Assembly (NCBI GenBank): GCA_019115085.1
Contig: DXEF01000013.1
Span: 1 to 40,916 of the forward strand
Origin: Candidatus Agathobaculum pullicola
GTDB lineage: Bacteria; Bacillota; Clostridia; Oscillospirales; Butyricicoccaceae
Length of the DNA: 40,916 nucleotides
Reading direction: 5' to 3'
Part shown: positions 34,380 to 40,916 of the stretch, in pieces
Numbering within the stretch: position 1 is the first letter of the stretch
Layout: each line of letters begins with the position of its first letter
The notes under the pieces: model-generated
What the model was told of the DNA's origin: nothing
Databases searched by the model: none
Seen by the model: the letters and a program-made list of their open reading frames with translations, nothing else
Program-made: the position numbers and the translations under genes

Positions 34380-35339
34380 TTAACCGCGCACAATGTTGCG
34401 GTAGCGGCCGAGCGCATCGTTCCAGCTGCTGTCGTGCGCAGTGTCACGGTGATCGGGCAGCGAATAGGTTTCCTGTAGGTATTTTCCAAGGAAAGCCGAA
34501 ACCTTAACCGCGCCCGTATAGTTGAGATGGTCGCCGCGGTCGCGCGTATCGCGCGACCAGTCAATCGGCACCTCTTGGGGCATGGTGTTGAGGTCGAGAT
34601 AGGTCAAATTGTTTTCCTGCGCGAAAGCGGCAATGCTGTTATGCCGCGCGTGATTCCAGTTGATGGTGCTCGGTGTACTGACCAGAATCAGTTCGGCATT
34701 GTTTTCCTCGCACAGCGCAATCATATCCTGCAAACAGGATTCGTTGAGCGCGGGAATCGGAGCGGTCGCGTCGGATGGCACCATGTAATTTGTGGTGCTC
34801 GCGGCCGCGACGGCGGAATTGTAGCGAAAGCCTTTGAGATCGTCCGTCCAGGTGTACTCCACCGGACGGCCGAAGTCGTTGACCTTGAGCGCTTTCCAGC
34901 GGTCATGGTAGCGCAGCACGGAAAACAGGTTTTTCGCGCGGGAAAGCAGATAATCGTTGAGCTTATATGGGCGGAAAATGGCGTTAGTCTCCAGCACAAC
35001 GACCGAGGGGCTTTGCCGCTCGAGCGCCTGCCGCAGAAAGCGATAGGAGTCATAAAGCGGCTGGGCAGGGGTGCTGCACAGATAGGAGCGAAAACCGCGC
35101 TCTGACCATATCTGCATGGGAGAAATCGAGCTGTATGCCTCGCTGTCGCCCACGACCAGCACGTCGATAGAGTTTTCTTTTTCGCCCAATATGCCACTGG
35201 CCAGCATTTCGGCGTCATTTACGCCGAATGCCTTGTGGTTGTTCTTGGGCATGAACAGATAGGAGGCGGCCAGCATAAGTGCGCATAGCAGCGTCAGAAA
35301 ACAGGCGCCTTTGGCAAAGAGCGCAATATGTTTTTTCAA
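34380..35339 (-). CDS. SGNH-type surface acyltransferase/hydrolase (DltD-like role)
   Basis: 319 aa from the TTG at 35339: AGGAGG lies 10 nt upstream, whereas the GTG at 35348 is only a base or two from it. One N-terminal TM/anchor (about residues 8-30), then an extracytoplasmic SGNH domain with GDS (Ser66 in VVGDSEAYSS) and the C-terminal DHLNYTG (Asp270/His271), giving a Ser-Asp-His type active site. It is the last gene of the operon, after the MBOAT. In dlt systems DltD follows DltB and hands D-Ala to teichoic acid; in alginate-type systems an AlgJ/AlgX-like protein plays this role. The start and true DltD homology are inferred. Confidence 0.82.
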   Translation of the reverse strand: MKKHIALFAKGACFLTLLCALMLAASYLFMPKNNHKAFGVNDAEMLASGILGEKENSIDVLVVGDSEAYSSISPMQIWSERGFRSYLCSTPAQPLYDSYRFLRQALERQSPSVVVLETNAIFRPYKLNDYLLSRAKNLFSVLRYHDRWKALKVNDFGRPVEYTWTDDLKGFRYNSAVAAASTTNYMVPSDATAPIPALNESCLQDMIALCEENNAELILVSTPSTINWNHARHNSIAAFAQENNLTYLDLNTMPQEVPIDWSRDTRDRGDHLNYTGAVKVSAFLGKYLQETYSLPDHRDTAHDSSWNDALGRYRNIVRG

Positions 35340-35354
35340 GTGGAACACACCTCC

Positions 35355-36947
35355 TTAAAATGCGGCATAAATCGGGTCAACCGGCACATAGCCGATACCG
35401 TATGCGCCGAAAATGACCAGAAAGAAAAATGCGGCGTAATAAACCGACCAGCGCAGTACGAGCGGACGGCGCGCGATGGATTCGCGTAGGGAAACGCCGC
35501 ACTCGCGCAGGATACCAACCAGCAGTACCAGGCCGACGGCAACGATAATGATACCGAAATCCATCTTGTCCATGCCGAGCGTCAGAAAGCTGCGGTCGAC
35601 AAAAGCGTCAAGGGAGAAATCCGTGACCATGGAGCGGAACATCGCAAGCCCGGCGCGCAGACCGTTGGCGCGGAAGAACAGCTCGCCCACACAGACCAGC
35701 AGTGCGGTGCGCACGATTTGGAAGATACGGTAGGGCATGCAGTTGCGGTCGATGTGCAGCAAACCGGTCAAACGCTGCGCAATGGGGTCAAACAGGTTGC
35801 CCGTCAGGATAAGCGCGAAGTGATACAGGCCGAAAAAGATGTAGTGCCAGCCCGCGCCGTGCCACAGGCCGTTGCACAGCCAGACTACGCCCAGCGCGAG
35901 GGAGCCGGAGAGCAGCGGGCCGTAGTGGTTGCCCAGACGGCGGCGTGCCGCACCCGTGAGCTTTTTCAGCGGGCCGGACATGGACAGCGGATAGAACACA
36001 TAATCCTTAAACCATGTGCCCAGTGTGATATGCCAGCGCATCCAGAACTCGGAGATGCTGCGGGAGAAAAACGGCTGACGGAAGTTTTCGGGCAGGCGCA
36101 CACCGAAAATTTCGGCGCTGCCGATGACCACATCCATCGTGCCGGAGAAGTCCATGTAAAGCTGACAGGTGTAGCACACCATCGCCAGCGCAATGATACC
36201 GCCGTTATATACGGCGTAATCGTTGAAAACGGTTTTGATGAGCAGATTGAGACGGTCGGCGATAACGATTTTTTTAATCAGACCGAACAGAATCCGCTGC
36301 ATGCCGAAGGTCAGGCCCTGCCAGGTGACCGGACGGCCTTCCCAGAGCTGGTGCGCGGTCTGCCCATAGCGACAGATCGGCCCTTCCATGATCTGCGGGA
36401 AAAAGCCGAGGAAGAGTGCGAGGCGCGCCAGATTGCGGTCGGCGCGGATCGTGCCGCGGTAGACATCGAGCAGATAGGAAAGGGCCTGCAGCGTATAAAA
36501 TGAGATGCCGATGGGCAGTAAAAACGCGGGCACGGGCAGCGAAACCGGAAGGCGCAGCGCGTGCAGCAGTGTGTTGAGATTGGTGCTGAAAAAGGCCGCG
36601 TATTTGAGCGTGACGAGCATGCCGACATGCAGCAGCGACGCTAACAGAAGAATCCGCCGCTGCCGCCGTGTAAAACGCTGCCGAATGGCTTTGCGTTCGG
36701 CAGGAGCGGCAGCGGCAAGACAGCGGTCGCGGTCCTGCTGCTCGGCGGTCAGCCAGAGACCGAAATGGTGAATGGATACGGTGGAAAACAGCAGAAACAC
36801 CAACAGCTTGCCGCTGACCGACCAGAAAAACGCATAGCTTGCCGCAAGAAGCGCGATCCAGCGCAGACGCTGCGGCAGGATACGGTAAACGAGCACCGCT
36901 GCCGGCAGAAAAACGGCCAGATACAGCAGCGAGCAGTAGGATGTCAT
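35355..36947 (-). CDS. MBOAT-family acyltransferase (DltB/AlgI-like)
   Basis: 530 aa, about 11-12 predicted TM helices. Conserved MBOAT elements: EFWMRWHITLGTWFKDYVFY (His306) and the catalytic NGLWHGAGWHY (His363). MBOATs move an acyl or aminoacyl group from a carrier across or at the membrane to an acceptor. GGAGGAAGG 6 nt before the ATG lies in the end of the carrier protein gene; the genes are 3 nt apart. It is expected to take the aminoacyl group from the carrier protein upstream. Confidence 0.93.
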   Translation of the reverse strand: MTSYCSLLYLAVFLPAAVLVYRILPQRLRWIALLAASYAFFWSVSGKLLVFLLFSTVSIHHFGLWLTAEQQDRDRCLAAAAPAERKAIRQRFTRRQRRILLLASLLHVGMLVTLKYAAFFSTNLNTLLHALRLPVSLPVPAFLLPIGISFYTLQALSYLLDVYRGTIRADRNLARLALFLGFFPQIMEGPICRYGQTAHQLWEGRPVTWQGLTFGMQRILFGLIKKIVIADRLNLLIKTVFNDYAVYNGGIIALAMVCYTCQLYMDFSGTMDVVIGSAEIFGVRLPENFRQPFFSRSISEFWMRWHITLGTWFKDYVFYPLSMSGPLKKLTGAARRRLGNHYGPLLSGSLALGVVWLCNGLWHGAGWHYIFFGLYHFALILTGNLFDPIAQRLTGLLHIDRNCMPYRIFQIVRTALLVCVGELFFRANGLRAGLAMFRSMVTDFSLDAFVDRSFLTLGMDKMDFGIIIVAVGLVLLVGILRECGVSLRESIARRPLVLRWSVYYAAFFFLVIFGAYGIGYVPVDPIYAAF

Positions 36948-36950
36948 AGC

Positions 36951-37181
36951 TTAGCCTTCCTCCTGTAGACGGACGATCATAGCCCACATATCCTCGGCGG
37001 AATTGAAGTTGGCAGGAATGATCTCAACGGTTGGGATGATGATGTCAAACGCCTCCTCCAGCTCGGCGACCAGTGCAAGGATAGTCAGCGAATCCAGACA
37101 GTGCGAATCGATCAGCGTACGGCAGGTGGTGTAATCCACGCCGGGCTGAAGTTCCTCCAGAATTGCAAGCAGTTGTTCCAT
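36951..37181 (-). CDS. Stand-alone acyl/aminoacyl carrier protein (DltC-like)
   Basis: 76 aa from the ATG at 37181 (AAAGGA 9 nt upstream). The phosphopantetheine site is Ser31 in HCLDSLTIL. The four-helix carrier pattern (LELEEAF-like helix, VEIIPANF, SAEDMWAMIV) and the length match DltC/BtrI-type stand-alone carriers. Its start lies inside the 3' end of the decarboxylase reading frame (137-nt overlap). It would hold the activated amino acid made by the operon's ligase. Confidence 0.9.
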   Translation of the reverse strand: MEQLLAILEELQPGVDYTTCRTLIDSHCLDSLTILALVAELEEAFDIIIPTVEIIPANFNSAEDMWAMIVRLQEEG

Positions 37182-38370
37182 GATAATCCGTCCTTTCATA
37201 AGCGGGTGAGTTGATTTCATCGGTGGGCAGCGCGTCGCGCACGAGGAGCGAACGGCCGTCCGGCATCAGCAGTACAATGCGCGGCAGTGCACGGCTGAGG
37301 AAAAGGGAAATGCCTTCGGTCATGCAGTAGGCGCCGGTGCTGGAAAAAGCGAACAGATCGCCGCACTTGAGGTCGGGCACCGGCAGCTGCTTGACCAGAA
37401 TATCGTTGACGGTGCACAGTGAGCCGCACAGATTCCACGGCGCGGCCTCGCCCAGACGCGGCGGATACAGCCGATAAGGGGGGATCTGCATGGCCATGCG
37501 CTGGCCGTAATAGACCAGATGATGGATGCCGCCGTCCAGAATGGCGTAATTCTGGCCCTTGTTGCGCTTGACGTCTACTACGCGGGTCAGATACGTGCCG
37601 CAGCTGGCGGCAATGCTGCGGCCAAGTTCCAGTGTAACATGCGCTTTGCAGCGCAGACCCGTCAGCATGGCGGAGAAACCGGACAGAAACGCGGCTTCGT
37701 CAAAACTCTCGGACGAGAAATACTGCACCGGAAAGCCCGGGCCGAATTCCAGCTCGTGCACGATAAAGCCCAGCTTTTCCATAAGCGAGCAGGCAAAGTT
37801 ATCGAGCATGTCCAGCTCGCGCTGCAGGCGCTTGAGCGAGGCCTTCTGCGTGCCGGAGAAGTATTGCAGGCCGCGGATGAGAATAAAGGGATGGTCGGCG
37901 CGGTTGCGGATGATCCGAATGATCTCCTCCTCCTCCAGACCGAACTGGCTGCCACTGGTCAGACGCAGCAGCACATGAATGGTGACGCGATAGCGCGCAG
38001 ATAACTGGCTGAGCAGCGTAAACTGGCGGGCCGATTCAACGGTAAACAGACGCGGGCCGTTTTTGTGCGCAATCATCCGTTCGATATCCGCCGGGGTCTT
38101 GTATACGCCTGAGATGACCTGCGCTTCGGCAGGGATATGCAGGCGGCGGCAGATTGCGGCTTCGCCGGGGGAGCAGACCTCAAAGCGCTCTACCTGACCG
38201 CACAGCTCGCGCAGCAGAAAGGGATTGGCTTTGATCGCATAGCACAGGCCGACGCCGGTCGGCAGGCTGCGCCGCAGCAGTGCCACGCGCTGGTGCAGGG
38301 CCTGCACATCGAACACATACAGCGGGGAGCCATATTGTGCAGTGAGGTTTTCGATTTGATGTTCGGTCAT
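37045..38370 (-). CDS. Fold-type III PLP decarboxylase (BtrK-like rather than LysA-like)
   Basis: 441 aa if read to its first stop; the last ~46 residues overlap the carrier gene out of frame and look non-native, so the functional end is probably near residue 395 (RDALPTDEINS). PLP Lys47 lies in CYAIKANPFLL. Other sites: GLQYFSGTQ, EFGPGFPVQYF at the phosphate-binding loop, LELGRS, CTVNDIL (catalytic Cys, but T-x-x-D instead of the LysA C-E-S-x-D), and STGAYCM. The CTxxD and GTQ features resemble BtrK, which decarboxylates glutamate on a carrier protein. The ATG overlaps the ligase stop (ATGA), with GAAAGGAG upstream. Substrate inferred, not seen. Confidence 0.86.
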   Translation of the reverse strand: MTEHQIENLTAQYGSPLYVFDVQALHQRVALLRRSLPTGVGLCYAIKANPFLLRELCGQVERFEVCSPGEAAICRRLHIPAEAQVISGVYKTPADIERMIAHKNGPRLFTVESARQFTLLSQLSARYRVTIHVLLRLTSGSQFGLEEEEIIRIIRNRADHPFILIRGLQYFSGTQKASLKRLQRELDMLDNFACSLMEKLGFIVHELEFGPGFPVQYFSSESFDEAAFLSGFSAMLTGLRCKAHVTLELGRSIAASCGTYLTRVVDVKRNKGQNYAILDGGIHHLVYYGQRMAMQIPPYRLYPPRLGEAAPWNLCGSLCTVNDILVKQLPVPDLKCGDLFAFSSTGAYCMTEGISLFLSRALPRIVLLMPDGRSLLVRDALPTDEINSPAYERTDYHGTTACNSGGTSARRGLHHLPYADRFALSGFADYPCTGRRAGGGV

Positions 38371-39884
38371 ACGATCTCCTTTCTTGCCATGGCAAGCAAT
38401 CGCTTGCGGTCGGTTTTGCCGTTTTCGGTCAGCGGTAGGCTGTCCAACGGCTCGAGCGTGCGCGGCAGCATGAAAACGGGCAGCCGCTGCGTGAGCGCGG
38501 TGCGTACCGCAGCCTTATCGGCCGCGCCGGTGTAAAAGCCGTGCAGCCGTTCTTTCTGCGCGTCGTATACACAGCAGCACCGGCTGACGCCGTCGACCTC
38601 CTGCACCGCGCGTTCGATTTCCTCCAGCTCGATGCGGTGGCCCATGTGTTTGATTTGAAAATCCTTCCGGCCGAGGAAGTACAGCTCGCCTTCGGCGCTC
38701 CATCGCCCGAGGTCGCCCGTGCGGTAGATCGGCTGTAAATAGCGGCTGTGGCCGGGGTGTTGTAAAAATACGGTTTGCGTCTGCGCGGGATTGTTATAGT
38801 ACCCGAGCGCAAGCGCCGCGCCGCTGACACAGATTTCGCCCGCCTGATCCGGCGTATGTATTTCCTGTCCCGCCTCGTCCAGCAGGAATACCCGCTCGTT
38901 CGGAAACGCTGTCCCGAGCGGGATCCCCGCTGTATAATCTCTATCACTCTCTATCCTATGGTACGTGCAATTGCACGTGATCTCGGTGGGGCCGTACAGG
39001 TTGACGAAATCCGCATGCGGCAAATGCTCCATCCAGCTTTTCAGGTGTTTAGGCGGCATGACTTCGCCGCTGAACAACACCTTGTTTACCGTTTCCGGCG
39101 TGCGGTAGTCCAGACCGTGGAAGGAGGACACCAGACACAGCGCGGAGACAGCCCAGATGAGCGTGGTAACCCGGTGCGCGCAGAGCGCATCCATCAGCGC
39201 GGACGGTTGGGAGAACAGCCGCCGCGGCAGCAGCACGAGCGTGGCGCCGGTGTACAGAGCGGAATATATATCCTTGACCGAAACATCAAAGTCGAGCGGT
39301 GCTTGATTGCCGATGATGTCATCCGGACCAATCCGGAACAGTTCGGTGAAGGGCAAAATGAAATCCAGCACGGAGCGGTGGCTGACAACCACGCCCTTGG
39401 GCGTGCCGGTCGAGCCGGAGGTAAAATTACAGTACAGCGGGTCGCCGTCGATAGCGCCGAGGCGAATCCTCGTCAGCAGGGCATCGTCGGGCTGCGTTTG
39501 CAGCAGATCTTCGACCAGCAGAATATGTCCCGCGCCGGGCAACTGCGCGGCCAGCGCCGCGTGTTCCCGATCGGTCACGATGCAGGGGGCTTGCAGGACC
39601 GAGAGAATCTGCGCCAGCCGCGGCTGCGGCAGCGCGGGAGAGAGCGGAACATAAAAGCATCCTGCGTACGCCGCGCCGAAAAAGGCATAGAGCGCTTCAC
39701 GGCTCTTGTCCAGCAGCACCGGAACCGGTGCGGTGGGGGAGAGGCGCGCGGCAAGCGCGGTGCCGCAGCGGCGGCTGCGGTCAAGCAGCGCGTCAAAACG
39801 GTCTGCGCCGTTTTCATCAATGACAGCGGTTTTATCCGGTCGTGCGGCGGCGGTATGCTCTAAAAGTTCCAGGATGTTGTTCAT
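38367..39884 (-). CDS. Amino acid adenylating ligase (DltA-like A-domain)
   Basis: 505 aa, the DltA length. Adenylation motifs: FTSGSTGTPKGVV (A3, ~154-166), LDFDVSVKDIYSAL (A4), NLYGPTEITCNCTYH (A5), YRTGDLGRW (A7), GRKDFQIKHMGHRIELEEIE (A8) and the Lys of NGKTDRKRL (A10). It activates an amino acid as its AMP ester and loads the carrier protein. At ~residue 272 it reads LFSGEV where DltA has LFCGEV; that Cys contacts D-Ala, so a different substrate is likely. ATG 39884 with ATGAGG upstream. First enzyme of the five-gene operon. Confidence 0.9.
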   Translation of the reverse strand: MNNILELLEHTAAARPDKTAVIDENGADRFDALLDRSRRCGTALAARLSPTAPVPVLLDKSREALYAFFGAAYAGCFYVPLSPALPQPRLAQILSVLQAPCIVTDREHAALAAQLPGAGHILLVEDLLQTQPDDALLTRIRLGAIDGDPLYCNFTSGSTGTPKGVVVSHRSVLDFILPFTELFRIGPDDIIGNQAPLDFDVSVKDIYSALYTGATLVLLPRRLFSQPSALMDALCAHRVTTLIWAVSALCLVSSFHGLDYRTPETVNKVLFSGEVMPPKHLKSWMEHLPHADFVNLYGPTEITCNCTYHRIESDRDYTAGIPLGTAFPNERVFLLDEAGQEIHTPDQAGEICVSGAALALGYYNNPAQTQTVFLQHPGHSRYLQPIYRTGDLGRWSAEGELYFLGRKDFQIKHMGHRIELEEIERAVQEVDGVSRCCCVYDAQKERLHGFYTGAADKAAVRTALTQRLPVFMLPRTLEPLDSLPLTENGKTDRKRLLAMARKEIV

Positions 39885-39926: not shown

Positions 39927-40412
39927 TTACTTCTTGTTGGCAACCGATGTAGAGGCGGCCTTTTGGGTGGATGCAGTCTTATCGGAGGCCTTTGCAGTAT
40001 TCTTGGTGGAAGCTGTCTTGGAGGACTTTGCAGTCTTGCTCGTGGACGCGGTCTTGCCGGAGGACTTCTTCGTGCTCTTCTTGGCGGCTTTGGTGCCACC
40101 GGACTGCTTGACCGCTGCCTTCTTCTGCGTGGTGGAGCTGGACTTGCTCTTGGTCTTTGTGTCAGACTTGTCCGTAGCGGTGTCGGATGTGTTCTTGTTT
40201 TCCGTGCTGGACTTGTCCGCGGCAGTATCCGATTGGTCCTTAGCGGTGGCGGTGGTGGTCGTCTGCGTCTGAGAGGTCGCCTCCTGCTCGGGCTCAGCGT
40301 TCTGGTCGGATTTGACAAGCGAAGAACAGCCGGTTAGCGCGGGCAGTGCCATCATCATGGCCAGAGAAATAGCGGCAACGCCTTTGGCGTTTTTATGATT
40401 GATTAATTTCAT
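39927..40412 (-). CDS. Lipoprotein with Lys/Ser/Thr-rich low-complexity tail
   Basis: 161 aa from the ATG at 40412 (AAGGAG 10 nt upstream). N-terminal signal with hydrophobic stretch and lipobox LTGC (cleavage before the Cys, about residue 29). The rest is low complexity: first Gln/Thr/Asp/Glu-rich and near-neutral, then strongly basic with recurring KTAST/KTAKSS-like units (residues ~95-160), resembling a histone-H1-like or wall-spanning tail. No folded domain is evident. It lies 42 nt upstream of the ligase with no terminator between, so it may belong to the same transcript. Function unknown; binding to anionic wall polymers is one possibility. Confidence 0.85.
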   Translation of the reverse strand: MKLINHKNAKGVAAISLAMMMALPALTGCSSLVKSDQNAEPEQEATSQTQTTTTATAKDQSDTAADKSSTENKNTSDTATDKSDTKTKSKSSSTTQKKAAVKQSGGTKAAKKSTKKSSGKTASTSKTAKSSKTASTKNTAKASDKTASTQKAASTSVANKK

Positions 40413-40440
40413 GTTTTCAGATCTCCTTTGGTGTTTGGTG

Positions 40441-40456
40441 AAGAGCACTTGCTCTT
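40441..40456 (-). repeat. Inverted repeat in the lipoprotein leader
   Basis: AAGAGC-ACTT-GCTCTT, a perfect 6-bp inverted repeat about 30 nt before the start codon. It could form a hairpin near the ribosome site or be an operator. An AT-rich -10-like TATAAA lies just upstream on the minus strand (40483-40488), with no good -35. Confidence 0.45.
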
Positions 40457-40577: not shown

Positions 40578-40916
40578 TTACTGCGGCGGTTTGGGCAGCG
40601 TCAGCTCAAATTCGGTGTGCCAGCCGTTATGCGGCGGATGCACCAGCCGGATAGAGCCACCATGCAGTTCCGCTACCTTTTTGGCGATCGCCATGCCAAG
40701 GCCCGTGCCGCCGCCCGAGGTCCTGGCCTGGTTTCCAGTGACGAACGGCTCAAACAGCGTATCCGCCAGCTCGGGAGGAATACCGACGCCGCTGTCCGCC
40801 ACCGTCAGCCGAACGGCGTCGGGGGTATCCGTCAGCCCGAAAAAGAGCGTCGTTCCGGCGGGGTTGTATTGCAGGGCATTGCTGGTCAGGTTCTCCAGCA
40901 GCCGCCGCAGCAGACG
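40578..40916 (-). CDS. Sensor histidine kinase, C-terminal HATPase domain (5' end outside window)
   Basis: 113 codons to the edge. The N box reads ENLTSNALQYNPAG. G1 is VADSGVGIPPEL, then LFEPFVTGNQART, and G2 is GGGTGLGMAIAKKVAELHGG. This is the ATP-binding half of an OmpR-group type kinase, ending in TLPKPPQ. Its sensor and His box lie beyond the right edge, as does any cognate regulator. It is encoded upstream of, and on the same strand as, the lipoprotein and Dlt-like operon, separated by a terminator. Confidence 0.93.
   Translation of the reverse strand, partial: RLLRRLLENLTSNALQYNPAGTTLFFGLTDTPDAVRLTVADSGVGIPPELADTLFEPFVTGNQARTSGGGTGLGMAIAKKVAELHGGSIRLVHPPHNGWHTEFELTLPKPPQ

Follow-up and report, generated by a model that had tools for sequence, protein, structure and literature searches.

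A conserved Dlt-like operon with a BtrK-like decarboxylase in Candidatus Agathobaculum pullicola, and its probable role in envelope aminoacylation with a residue decarboxylated on the carrier

The window considered here, a stretch of 40,916 nucleotides (nt) of contig DXEF01000013.1 from Candidatus Agathobaculum pullicola (assembly GCA_019115085.1), carries on its minus strand an operon of five nearly touching genes (39884-34380), which encode in order a ligase, a pyridoxal phosphate (PLP) decarboxylase, a carrier, an MBOAT and an SGNH-like protein (Table 1). The set resembles the Dlt system for the D-alanylation of teichoic acids (DltA, DltB, DltC, DltD and DltX) in bringing together, within a single operon, a ligase of the DltA fold, a stand-alone carrier, a DltB-related MBOAT and an SGNH-like protein; it differs from that system in having a decarboxylase between ligase and carrier. 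On the evidence of sequence and analogy, the best reading is of an operon that would work like a Dlt system to which a step resembling that of BtrK, from butirosin biosynthesis, has been added.

Table 1. Positions of the operon genes and of the upstream kinase gene in the window
Feature	Position	Strand	Description
Ligase, 505 amino acids	38367..39884	-	DltA fold; stand-alone amino-acid adenylation enzyme / carrier-protein ligase
Decarboxylase	37045..38370	-	Fold-type III PLP enzyme, BtrK/SbnH-like; K47, C319 in CTVND
Carrier, 76 amino acids	36951..37181	-	Probable phosphopantetheine serine S31 in CLDSL
MBOAT, 530 amino acids	35355..36947	-	DltB-related; conserved His363; C-terminal acyl-shuttle-like motif ending PIYAAF (Tyr527)
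SGNH-like protein, 322 amino acids	34380..35348	-	DltD role; GDS Ser69, His274
Sensor histidine kinase	40578..40916	-	Upstream of the operon; C-terminal part only, cut by contig end

Searches against Pfam and NCBIfam identify an AMP-binding domain in the ligase (8.5e-64), which also exceeds the cut-off of the TIGR01733 amino-acid adenylation subfamily, Orn/DAP/Arg decarboxylase domains in the decarboxylase and an MBOAT family match in the fourth protein (2.5e-12). The PP-binding match of the carrier, at 20.2 bits, lies slightly below the cut-off of 20.8. No family match above cut-off is obtained for the SGNH-like protein, the best being GDSL with an E value of 0.02, and its assignment is based on its motifs (GDS with Ser69, and a conserved His274) and on its place in the operon. 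The NCBIfam equivalog scores for the Dlt proteins themselves all fall far short of their cut-offs, with 275 of 560 bits for DltA, 165 of 375 for DltB and 26 of 68 for DltC. The DltA proteins of six loci with canonical gene order from the same taxonomic order are likewise below the DltA cut-off, at 476-503 bits.

The level of conservation of the operon was studied by searching for relatives of its decarboxylase. Among 295 genomes of the order, a threshold of 1e-20 yielded 22 matches, of which 13, including that of the window's genome, score at least 286 bits (38-100% identity) and nine are LysA-like, at 74-84 bits. A scan of 84,980 species genomes provided 118 relatives, the best 80 of which were used; together with 12 loci from the order and the window these make 93 rows, or 86 distinct decarboxylases once seven duplicates are removed. 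The best 80 of the 118 include representatives from Agathobaculum, Pseudoflavonifractor, Ruminococcus bromii, Lachnospiraceae and Faecousia, as well as, outside the Clostridia, Traorella (Erysipelotrichia), Enorma (Coriobacteriia, another phylum) and a metagenome-assembled genome of the Eggerthellaceae.

The five tightly packed genes were named, with their roles, by a sequence-only reading of the window, and the complete set recurs in identical order in 78 of the 86 distinct loci, spanning Clostridia, Traorella and Coriobacteria. The other eight comprise five that are cut by contig ends, two in which the genes are rearranged (locus L036, with ligase-carrier-decarboxylase-MBOAT-SGNH, and L105, with ligase-decarboxylase-SGNH-carrier-MBOAT) and one, L119, that is partial. 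Median intergenic gaps in the 78 loci are -4 (76 counted), 4.5, 3 and 12 nt. The operon is hence real and conserved, and not a chance assembly. Its distribution is patchy, because in a phylum-wide sample the operon decarboxylase is present in only four of 398 genomes, the window's own included. No description of a decarboxylase within a dlt-like operon was found among the top-ranked literature matches, a coverage outside which most subscription journals lie.

Several lines of evidence bear on the identity of the decarboxylase, for which the sequence-only reading had pointed to Lys47 and to a catalytic-type Cys in a CTxxD context, as in BtrK. Lys47, Cys319 and Asp323 are invariant in all 86 orthologues, with a T following Cys319 in 62 of them and an S in the other 24, such that C[T/S]x[N/A]D describes the full set (86/86) and all 20 of the orthologues used as tree rows. 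The corresponding motif is CTVND in the window and CTPxD in BtrK and SbnH, as opposed to CExxD in 10 of 10 LysA rows. When a profile built from 27 rows was compared with solved structures, BtrK was the best match at 174.9 bits, ahead of SbnH (164.7) and the first LysA (158.0), and the AlphaFold model (mean pLDDT 88) is ranked by Foldseek in the same way (E values of 6.7e-32, 1.8e-29 and 3.3e-29 respectively). In an unrooted tree of 32 rows, consisting of 20 operon decarboxylases, 10 LysA, BtrK and SbnH, the operon decarboxylases form one side of a branch supported at 100/100, while the LysA sequences are split from the operon decarboxylases, BtrK and SbnH together at 99/97. Structure prediction and phylogeny, both of which had been suggested as checks, thus agree in siding with BtrK and SbnH over LysA, by a modest margin.

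A role as LysA in the supply of lysine, which had been left as an alternative, was rejected on profile score, motif, tree and the existence of a separate LysA-like gene in the same genome: the operon decarboxylase scores 151 bits against the TIGR01048 (LysA) cut-off of 298, whereas that second gene, though itself under this cut-off, scores 277 bits. A third gene is a distant family match at 53 bits. Both the racemase and the free-lysine alternatives are disfavoured.

The decarboxylase reading frame extends 137 nt into the carrier gene, its last 45 codons being read in a different frame from the carrier, and its core measures approximately 395 amino acids. The carrier gene has a further possible start, at an upstream ATG (37220). 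Across 12 distinct Agathobaculum loci (the window, L025, L026, L040-L043 and L045-L049), this overlap is 137 nt in seven and 65 nt in five, while it is at most 17 nt in loci of the same gene order from outside the genus. A programmed frameshift or a fusion of decarboxylase and carrier was rejected on these figures; because the long overlap is confined to Agathobaculum loci, it is enough to suppose that a former stop codon was lost and the decarboxylase tail thereby lengthened.

The model of the ligase (pLDDT 89) finds its best fold match in DltA (3e7w, TM-score 0.90). Its substrate pocket is formed by D200, V201, K204, I243, L270, S272, L296, C304, N305 and K490, which we take to correspond to GrsA positions 235, 236, 239, 278, 299, 301, 322, 330, 331 and 517. 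Passages of PMC8972799 describe how, in DltA, Asp197 and other residues bind the amine of D-alanine, with Leu, Met200 and Cys268 lining the methyl cavity and Cys268 selecting for D-alanine. The window ligase was aligned to L182, a DltA of canonical gene order, which was in turn aligned to the solved DltA 3fcc; Lys204 thereby corresponds to the Met in FDLSVMD and Ser272 to the Cys in FLFCGE, residues that count along the chain as 201 and 269, one above the numbering of PMC8972799. The Asp is therefore kept, but the Met position is occupied by Lys and the Cys by Ser, in agreement with the suggestion, made from the sequence alone, that the system might be one for a residue other than D-alanine. 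Because the pocket is not that for D-alanine and the scores stay under the Dlt cut-offs, the operon is set apart from Dlt proper.

The substituted pocket is highly conserved. The code DVK[I/V/T][L/M/I]S[L/V]CNK is present in 83 of the 84 orthologues that are readable in full (81 rows of the pocket survey, plus L064 and L082 upon re-reading), and the partial ligases of L040 and L068 agree with it wherever they can be read. By contrast, all six canonical-order DltA of the order have V, L or C at position 239 and C at position 301. The pocket Lys suggests an acidic substrate; as it would fit a residue that still bears its carboxylate, it points to loading before decarboxylation rather than to the loading of free beta-alanine or gamma-aminobutyrate (GABA). 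In a ligase tree that sampled 16 decarboxylase-type ligases, 15 group together at 99, with the canonical-order DltA lying across a branch with an SH-aLRT of 100.

The membrane part of the operon also departs from Dlt. His363 of the MBOAT is conserved at 97% or more, and the C-terminus ends in Y-x-x-F or Y-x-x-Y, mostly as P[I/M/L]YAxF, in 87 of 87 closed MBOAT genes drawn from the 93 rows with duplicates kept. This resembles the FxYxxF acyl-shuttle motif, the first F of which is mostly replaced by P in the operon proteins. According to passages of PMC12148441, DltX bears this motif in the Dlt system while other MBOATs bear it at their own C-terminus, and PatA acetylates the tyrosine of its motif, from which the group passes to a serine of PatB. 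The six canonical-order DltB (377-381 amino acids) lack the C-terminal tyrosine motif, whereas similar motifs close the long MBOATs of the sister operons described below, where these are complete.

In a DltA-family search of 295 genomes of the order, 82 had matches at 1e-60, none above cut-off. From these, 40 places were fetched, chosen to cover stand-alone ligases from the top and the middle of the score range; a match to the decarboxylase was absent from all 40. Six are canonical in order, with a ligase, an MBOAT of approximately 380 amino acids and a carrier. Type B (seven loci: L158-L163 and L167) has the code SMxYL[A/C]LD[I/V]K, in which Ser replaces the amine-binding Asp at position 235, and may, judging by this code, act on a substrate lacking an alpha-amine; five of its loci have a carrier, a long MBOAT and an SGNH protein, while L163 and L167 have no recognised MBOAT. 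Type C (13 loci, all with a long MBOAT) has the code DAKCAGLGMK or close to it. An Asp/Glu-racemase-family gene adjoins the ligase in two of these (L168 and L180) and lies about 5 kb downstream in a third (L175), a hint that the residue near such genes could be a D-acidic one. A pairing of every type C ligase with such a racemase was rejected, given its presence nearby in three of 13 loci.

Type D (four loci: L156, L164, L193 and L195) has the code D[L/A]KxxxxVDK, a long MBOAT and, between ligase and carrier in all four, a GNAT gene that has no match in the other 36 fetched loci. Pfam matches bear out the racemase call in L168 and the GNAT calls in L156, L195 and L193. The type D loci also have a downstream protein of 609-663 amino acids, which in L156, the one locus examined for this, has a polysaccharide deacetylase domain behind an apparent SGNH part. 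The remaining 10 loci fall outside the canonical class and types B, C and D. These three types form clean groups in the ligase tree, with SH-aLRT values of 100, 99 and 97. Because the place between ligase and carrier is taken by a GNAT in type D and by a decarboxylase in loci of the window's type, the sequences imply that this slot can hold different tailoring enzymes, with the pocket changing accordingly.

The window operon is best explained as probably an envelope aminoacylation system of the Dlt type, with a decarboxylase placed in line to act on the carrier. We infer the following chemistry, from substrate to decorated polymer. The ligase would adenylate an acidic amino acid on its side-chain carboxyl, L-aspartate being the most likely substrate and glutamate the second, with Asp200 binding the alpha-amine and Lys204 and Ser272 the alpha-carboxylate; it would then charge the phosphopantetheine arm of the carrier with the residue. 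The BtrK-like PLP enzyme would strip the alpha-carboxylate from the carrier-bound residue, giving a beta-alanyl-carrier or GABA-carrier. The MBOAT would next accept the residue from the carrier on its C-terminal tyrosine and in so doing bring it across the membrane, where the SGNH serine would receive it and go on to esterify a hydroxyl of a surface polymer. The outcome would be an amine-bearing ester like that of D-alanine, except that the amine would lie farther from the ester bond by one or two carbons.

The order of loading, decarboxylation on the carrier and transfer by MBOAT and SGNH proteins had been anticipated by the sequence-only reading, and is the best supported by profile, fold and tree, by the pocket, by linkage and by the sister slot. 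Precedents for decarboxylation on a carrier are BtrI/BtrK and VinN/VinL/VinO, for which it is described as shown, and BolO/BolC/BolN, for which it is proposed, according to published passages. The papers on whose passages this analysis as a whole draws are PMC11284099, PMC7756342, PMC12148441, PMC7857480, PMC11405602 and PMC8972799. Between the two products, the balance tips a little past the midpoint towards aspartate and beta-alanine, with glutamate and GABA receiving well under half of the expectation and other residues the small remainder. This leaning arises because GABA thioesters cyclise easily, the abstract of PMC4737276 mentioning ready cyclisation for a starter unit of this kind, and because the five genes include no N-protecting enzyme.

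A number of observations weigh against this mechanism. The margin by which the decarboxylase profile prefers BtrK to LysA is small (175 against 158 bits), TM-scores fail to separate BtrK (0.83-0.85) from LysA entries (up to 0.85), and in the tree BtrK and SbnH sit on long branches without grouping as a single clade, joins of a kind that the tree program warns may be false. By sequence, the ligase is nearer to nonribosomal peptide synthetase (NRPS) adenylation domains, such as those of linear gramicidin synthetase, than to DltA. L036 possesses the decarboxylase, yet its pocket deviates, with I at 235, R at 239 and S at 301, and its ligase falls beside type C in the tree; conversely, L165, whose ligase is sister to the decarboxylase-type group at 82, has the decarboxylase-type pocket with no decarboxylase in its operon, nor any match to one in a genome that is 72% complete. 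K239 is also present in the type C and D ligases, which lack a decarboxylase, and is thus a sign of an acidic substrate and not of decarboxylation in itself. Furthermore, in NRPS glutamate codes K239 serves activation of the alpha-carboxyl, which is incompatible with a decarboxylation step on the carrier. Passages of PMC7756342 name Asp230, Ser299 and Arg331 in VinN, and Ser272 may be the counterpart of this Ser299, although the correspondence is putative. At the far end of the pathway, L119 has ligase, decarboxylase and carrier, with no match to an MBOAT or SGNH protein in the 9.6 kb downstream. As to the acceptor, the window's genome has sulfatase-domain open reading frames of 628 and 652 amino acids, presumably long enough for LtaS. 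However, the operon-bearing genome G078 gave no sulfatase-domain (LtaS-type) match at 1e-20.

Among the alternatives, the one that would change least is that aspartate or glutamate is decarboxylated first in its free form and the ligase then loads free beta-alanine or GABA, giving the same end product by a different order of steps. It requires the same genes, and sequence does not reveal which step comes first; a parallel exists in incednine biosynthesis, where IdnL3 is reported to convert beta-glutamate by decarboxylation into 3-aminobutyrate, on which IdnL1 then acts. Yet the closest solved enzymes act on conjugates, carrier-bound glutamate for BtrK and a citryl conjugate for SbnH, and the combination of Lys and Asp in the pocket speaks for a substrate that presents an amine as well as a carboxylate next to the carboxyl being activated, making this order of events unlikely, if the least so of the alternatives. 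Only slightly less probable is the transfer of an alpha-linked residue, acidic or otherwise, with the decarboxylase being a side activity, a racemase or the supplier of another metabolite. The decarboxylase-free ligases with K239, the identical pocket of L165 and the racemase-family genes near three of the 13 type C ligases would all be accommodated by it; it is harder to reconcile with a pocket constant in 83 of 84 readable decarboxylase loci, gaps of only a few nt and the invariance of the Lys and Cys typical of a decarboxylase.

Two further explanations have far lower probability. A role in which the MBOAT hands the aminoacyl group to a secreted natural product or a lipid instead of a wall polymer would agree with the published trios found here that load and decarboxylate, which serve antibiotics and lipopeptides, as well as with the trio of L119 lacking a recognised MBOAT; but the operon ends in an MBOAT and SGNH pair of the kind that passages of PMC12148441 describe for envelope polymers, leaving this small-molecule role improbable. 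The least credible of all is that this is an ordinary D-alanine Dlt operon containing a chance copy of LysA, notwithstanding that the best fold match of the ligase is DltA and that DltA, DltB and DltC are among the family matches of ligase, MBOAT and carrier. Their scores are far under the Dlt cut-offs, and the decarboxylase is not LysA and is kept in 86 loci. A canonical D-alanine Dlt system was hence rejected on the replaced ligase pocket and on the ligase tree, in which canonical-order DltA lies beyond the fully supported branch.

The favoured on-carrier mechanism shares features with several known systems while coinciding with none. Besides its decarboxylase and the Lys and Ser in place of D-alanine pocket residues, the window operon differs from Dlt in the length of its MBOAT (530 amino acids), with its own C-terminal tyrosine motif, in the failure of any score to reach a Dlt cut-off and in gene order, ligase-decarboxylase-carrier-MBOAT-SGNH as opposed to the ligase-MBOAT-carrier of canonical-type loci. 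The likeness to BtrI and BtrK, which convert a glutamyl-carrier to a GABA-carrier in butirosin biosynthesis, lies in the decarboxylase fold, the CTxxD motif, the closest profile match and the free-standing carrier; the butirosin system, in which BtrJ is the loading enzyme for BtrI and an added protecting residue is used, serves an antibiotic, without MBOAT or SGNH proteins. In the vicenistatin (VinN/VinL/VinO), fluvirucin (FlvN) and bolagladin (BolO/BolC/BolN) pathways there is similarly an Asp-type substrate on a free-standing carrier and decarboxylation by a PLP enzyme (shown for Vin, proposed for Bol), although their product primes a polyketide synthase or NRPS and there is no envelope transferase.

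Systems of the PatA/PatB type share an MBOAT with a C-terminal acyl-shuttle tyrosine and a separate SGNH protein, but PatA uses acetyl-CoA and the ligase, carrier and decarboxylase are absent. Finally, among NCBIfam models the decarboxylase scores best with TIGR03099 (168 bits), and TIGR03098 is hit by the ligase (209 bits); these two families together recall the exosortase A-associated pair of ligase and PLP decarboxylase, except that both scores are far below the cut-offs of 478 and 592 bits. The operon thus joins two known chemistries, the carrier-bound decarboxylation of antibiotic pathways and the decoration of the envelope by MBOAT and SGNH proteins.

A wider interpretation, to which slightly less than even confidence can be given, is that Clostridia and Coriobacteria, mostly from the gut, possess a modular class of Dlt-like systems in which, ahead of export, the residue is tailored while carrier-bound or drawn from another pool of substrates. 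The variants would be decarboxylated (as in the window operon), N-acylated by a GNAT, possibly D-acidic, or lacking the amine anchor (Ser at 235), and across the class beta-alanyl or GABA esters and other acyl groups would replace D-alanine in the envelope, partly under a linked sensor kinase. D-alanylation is a main means by which Gram-positive bacteria tune envelope charge and resist cationic peptides of the host. If commensals including Ruminococcus bromii and Agathobaculum use a residue decarboxylated on the carrier in its place, part of their envelope chemistry has been overlooked, and beta-alanyl or GABA esters would differ from D-alanyl esters in charge geometry, stability and host recognition. 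The operon also suggests that the ligase pocket, together with the gene in the tailoring slot, might serve as a code from which surface chemistry could be read.

The linkage of the operon to the upstream kinase was compared between loci. Of 69 decarboxylase loci whose sequence extends 2.5 kb or more upstream, 23 have a homologous sensor kinase there on the same strand, four of these matches being weak (27-30% identity) and 19 long, at 33-100%, including the query locus itself. Such linkage is seen in Agathobaculum, Traorella, Enorma and others, while most decarboxylase loci are without the kinase; among the 40 loci lacking the decarboxylase, 38 of which have 2.5 kb upstream, there is a single far and weak match. 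Known dlt operons are under envelope-stress control, and by analogy the linked kinase would fit control of this kind.

A promoter scan of the window returned three promoter-like sites, no informative excess over the 2.4 that would be expected. Terminator-like sites at 40562-40531 and 34343-34329 flank the operon together with a small gene upstream of it, a weak indication given that 11 such sites were detected against an expectation of 6.9. This small gene (39927-40448, minus strand), directly upstream of the operon, encodes a lipoprotein-like product rich in Lys, Ala, Ser and Thr, for which the domain search found no family. The same gene is present upstream of the ligase in all six other Agathobaculum loci examined (L041, L042, L043, L046, L047 and L049).

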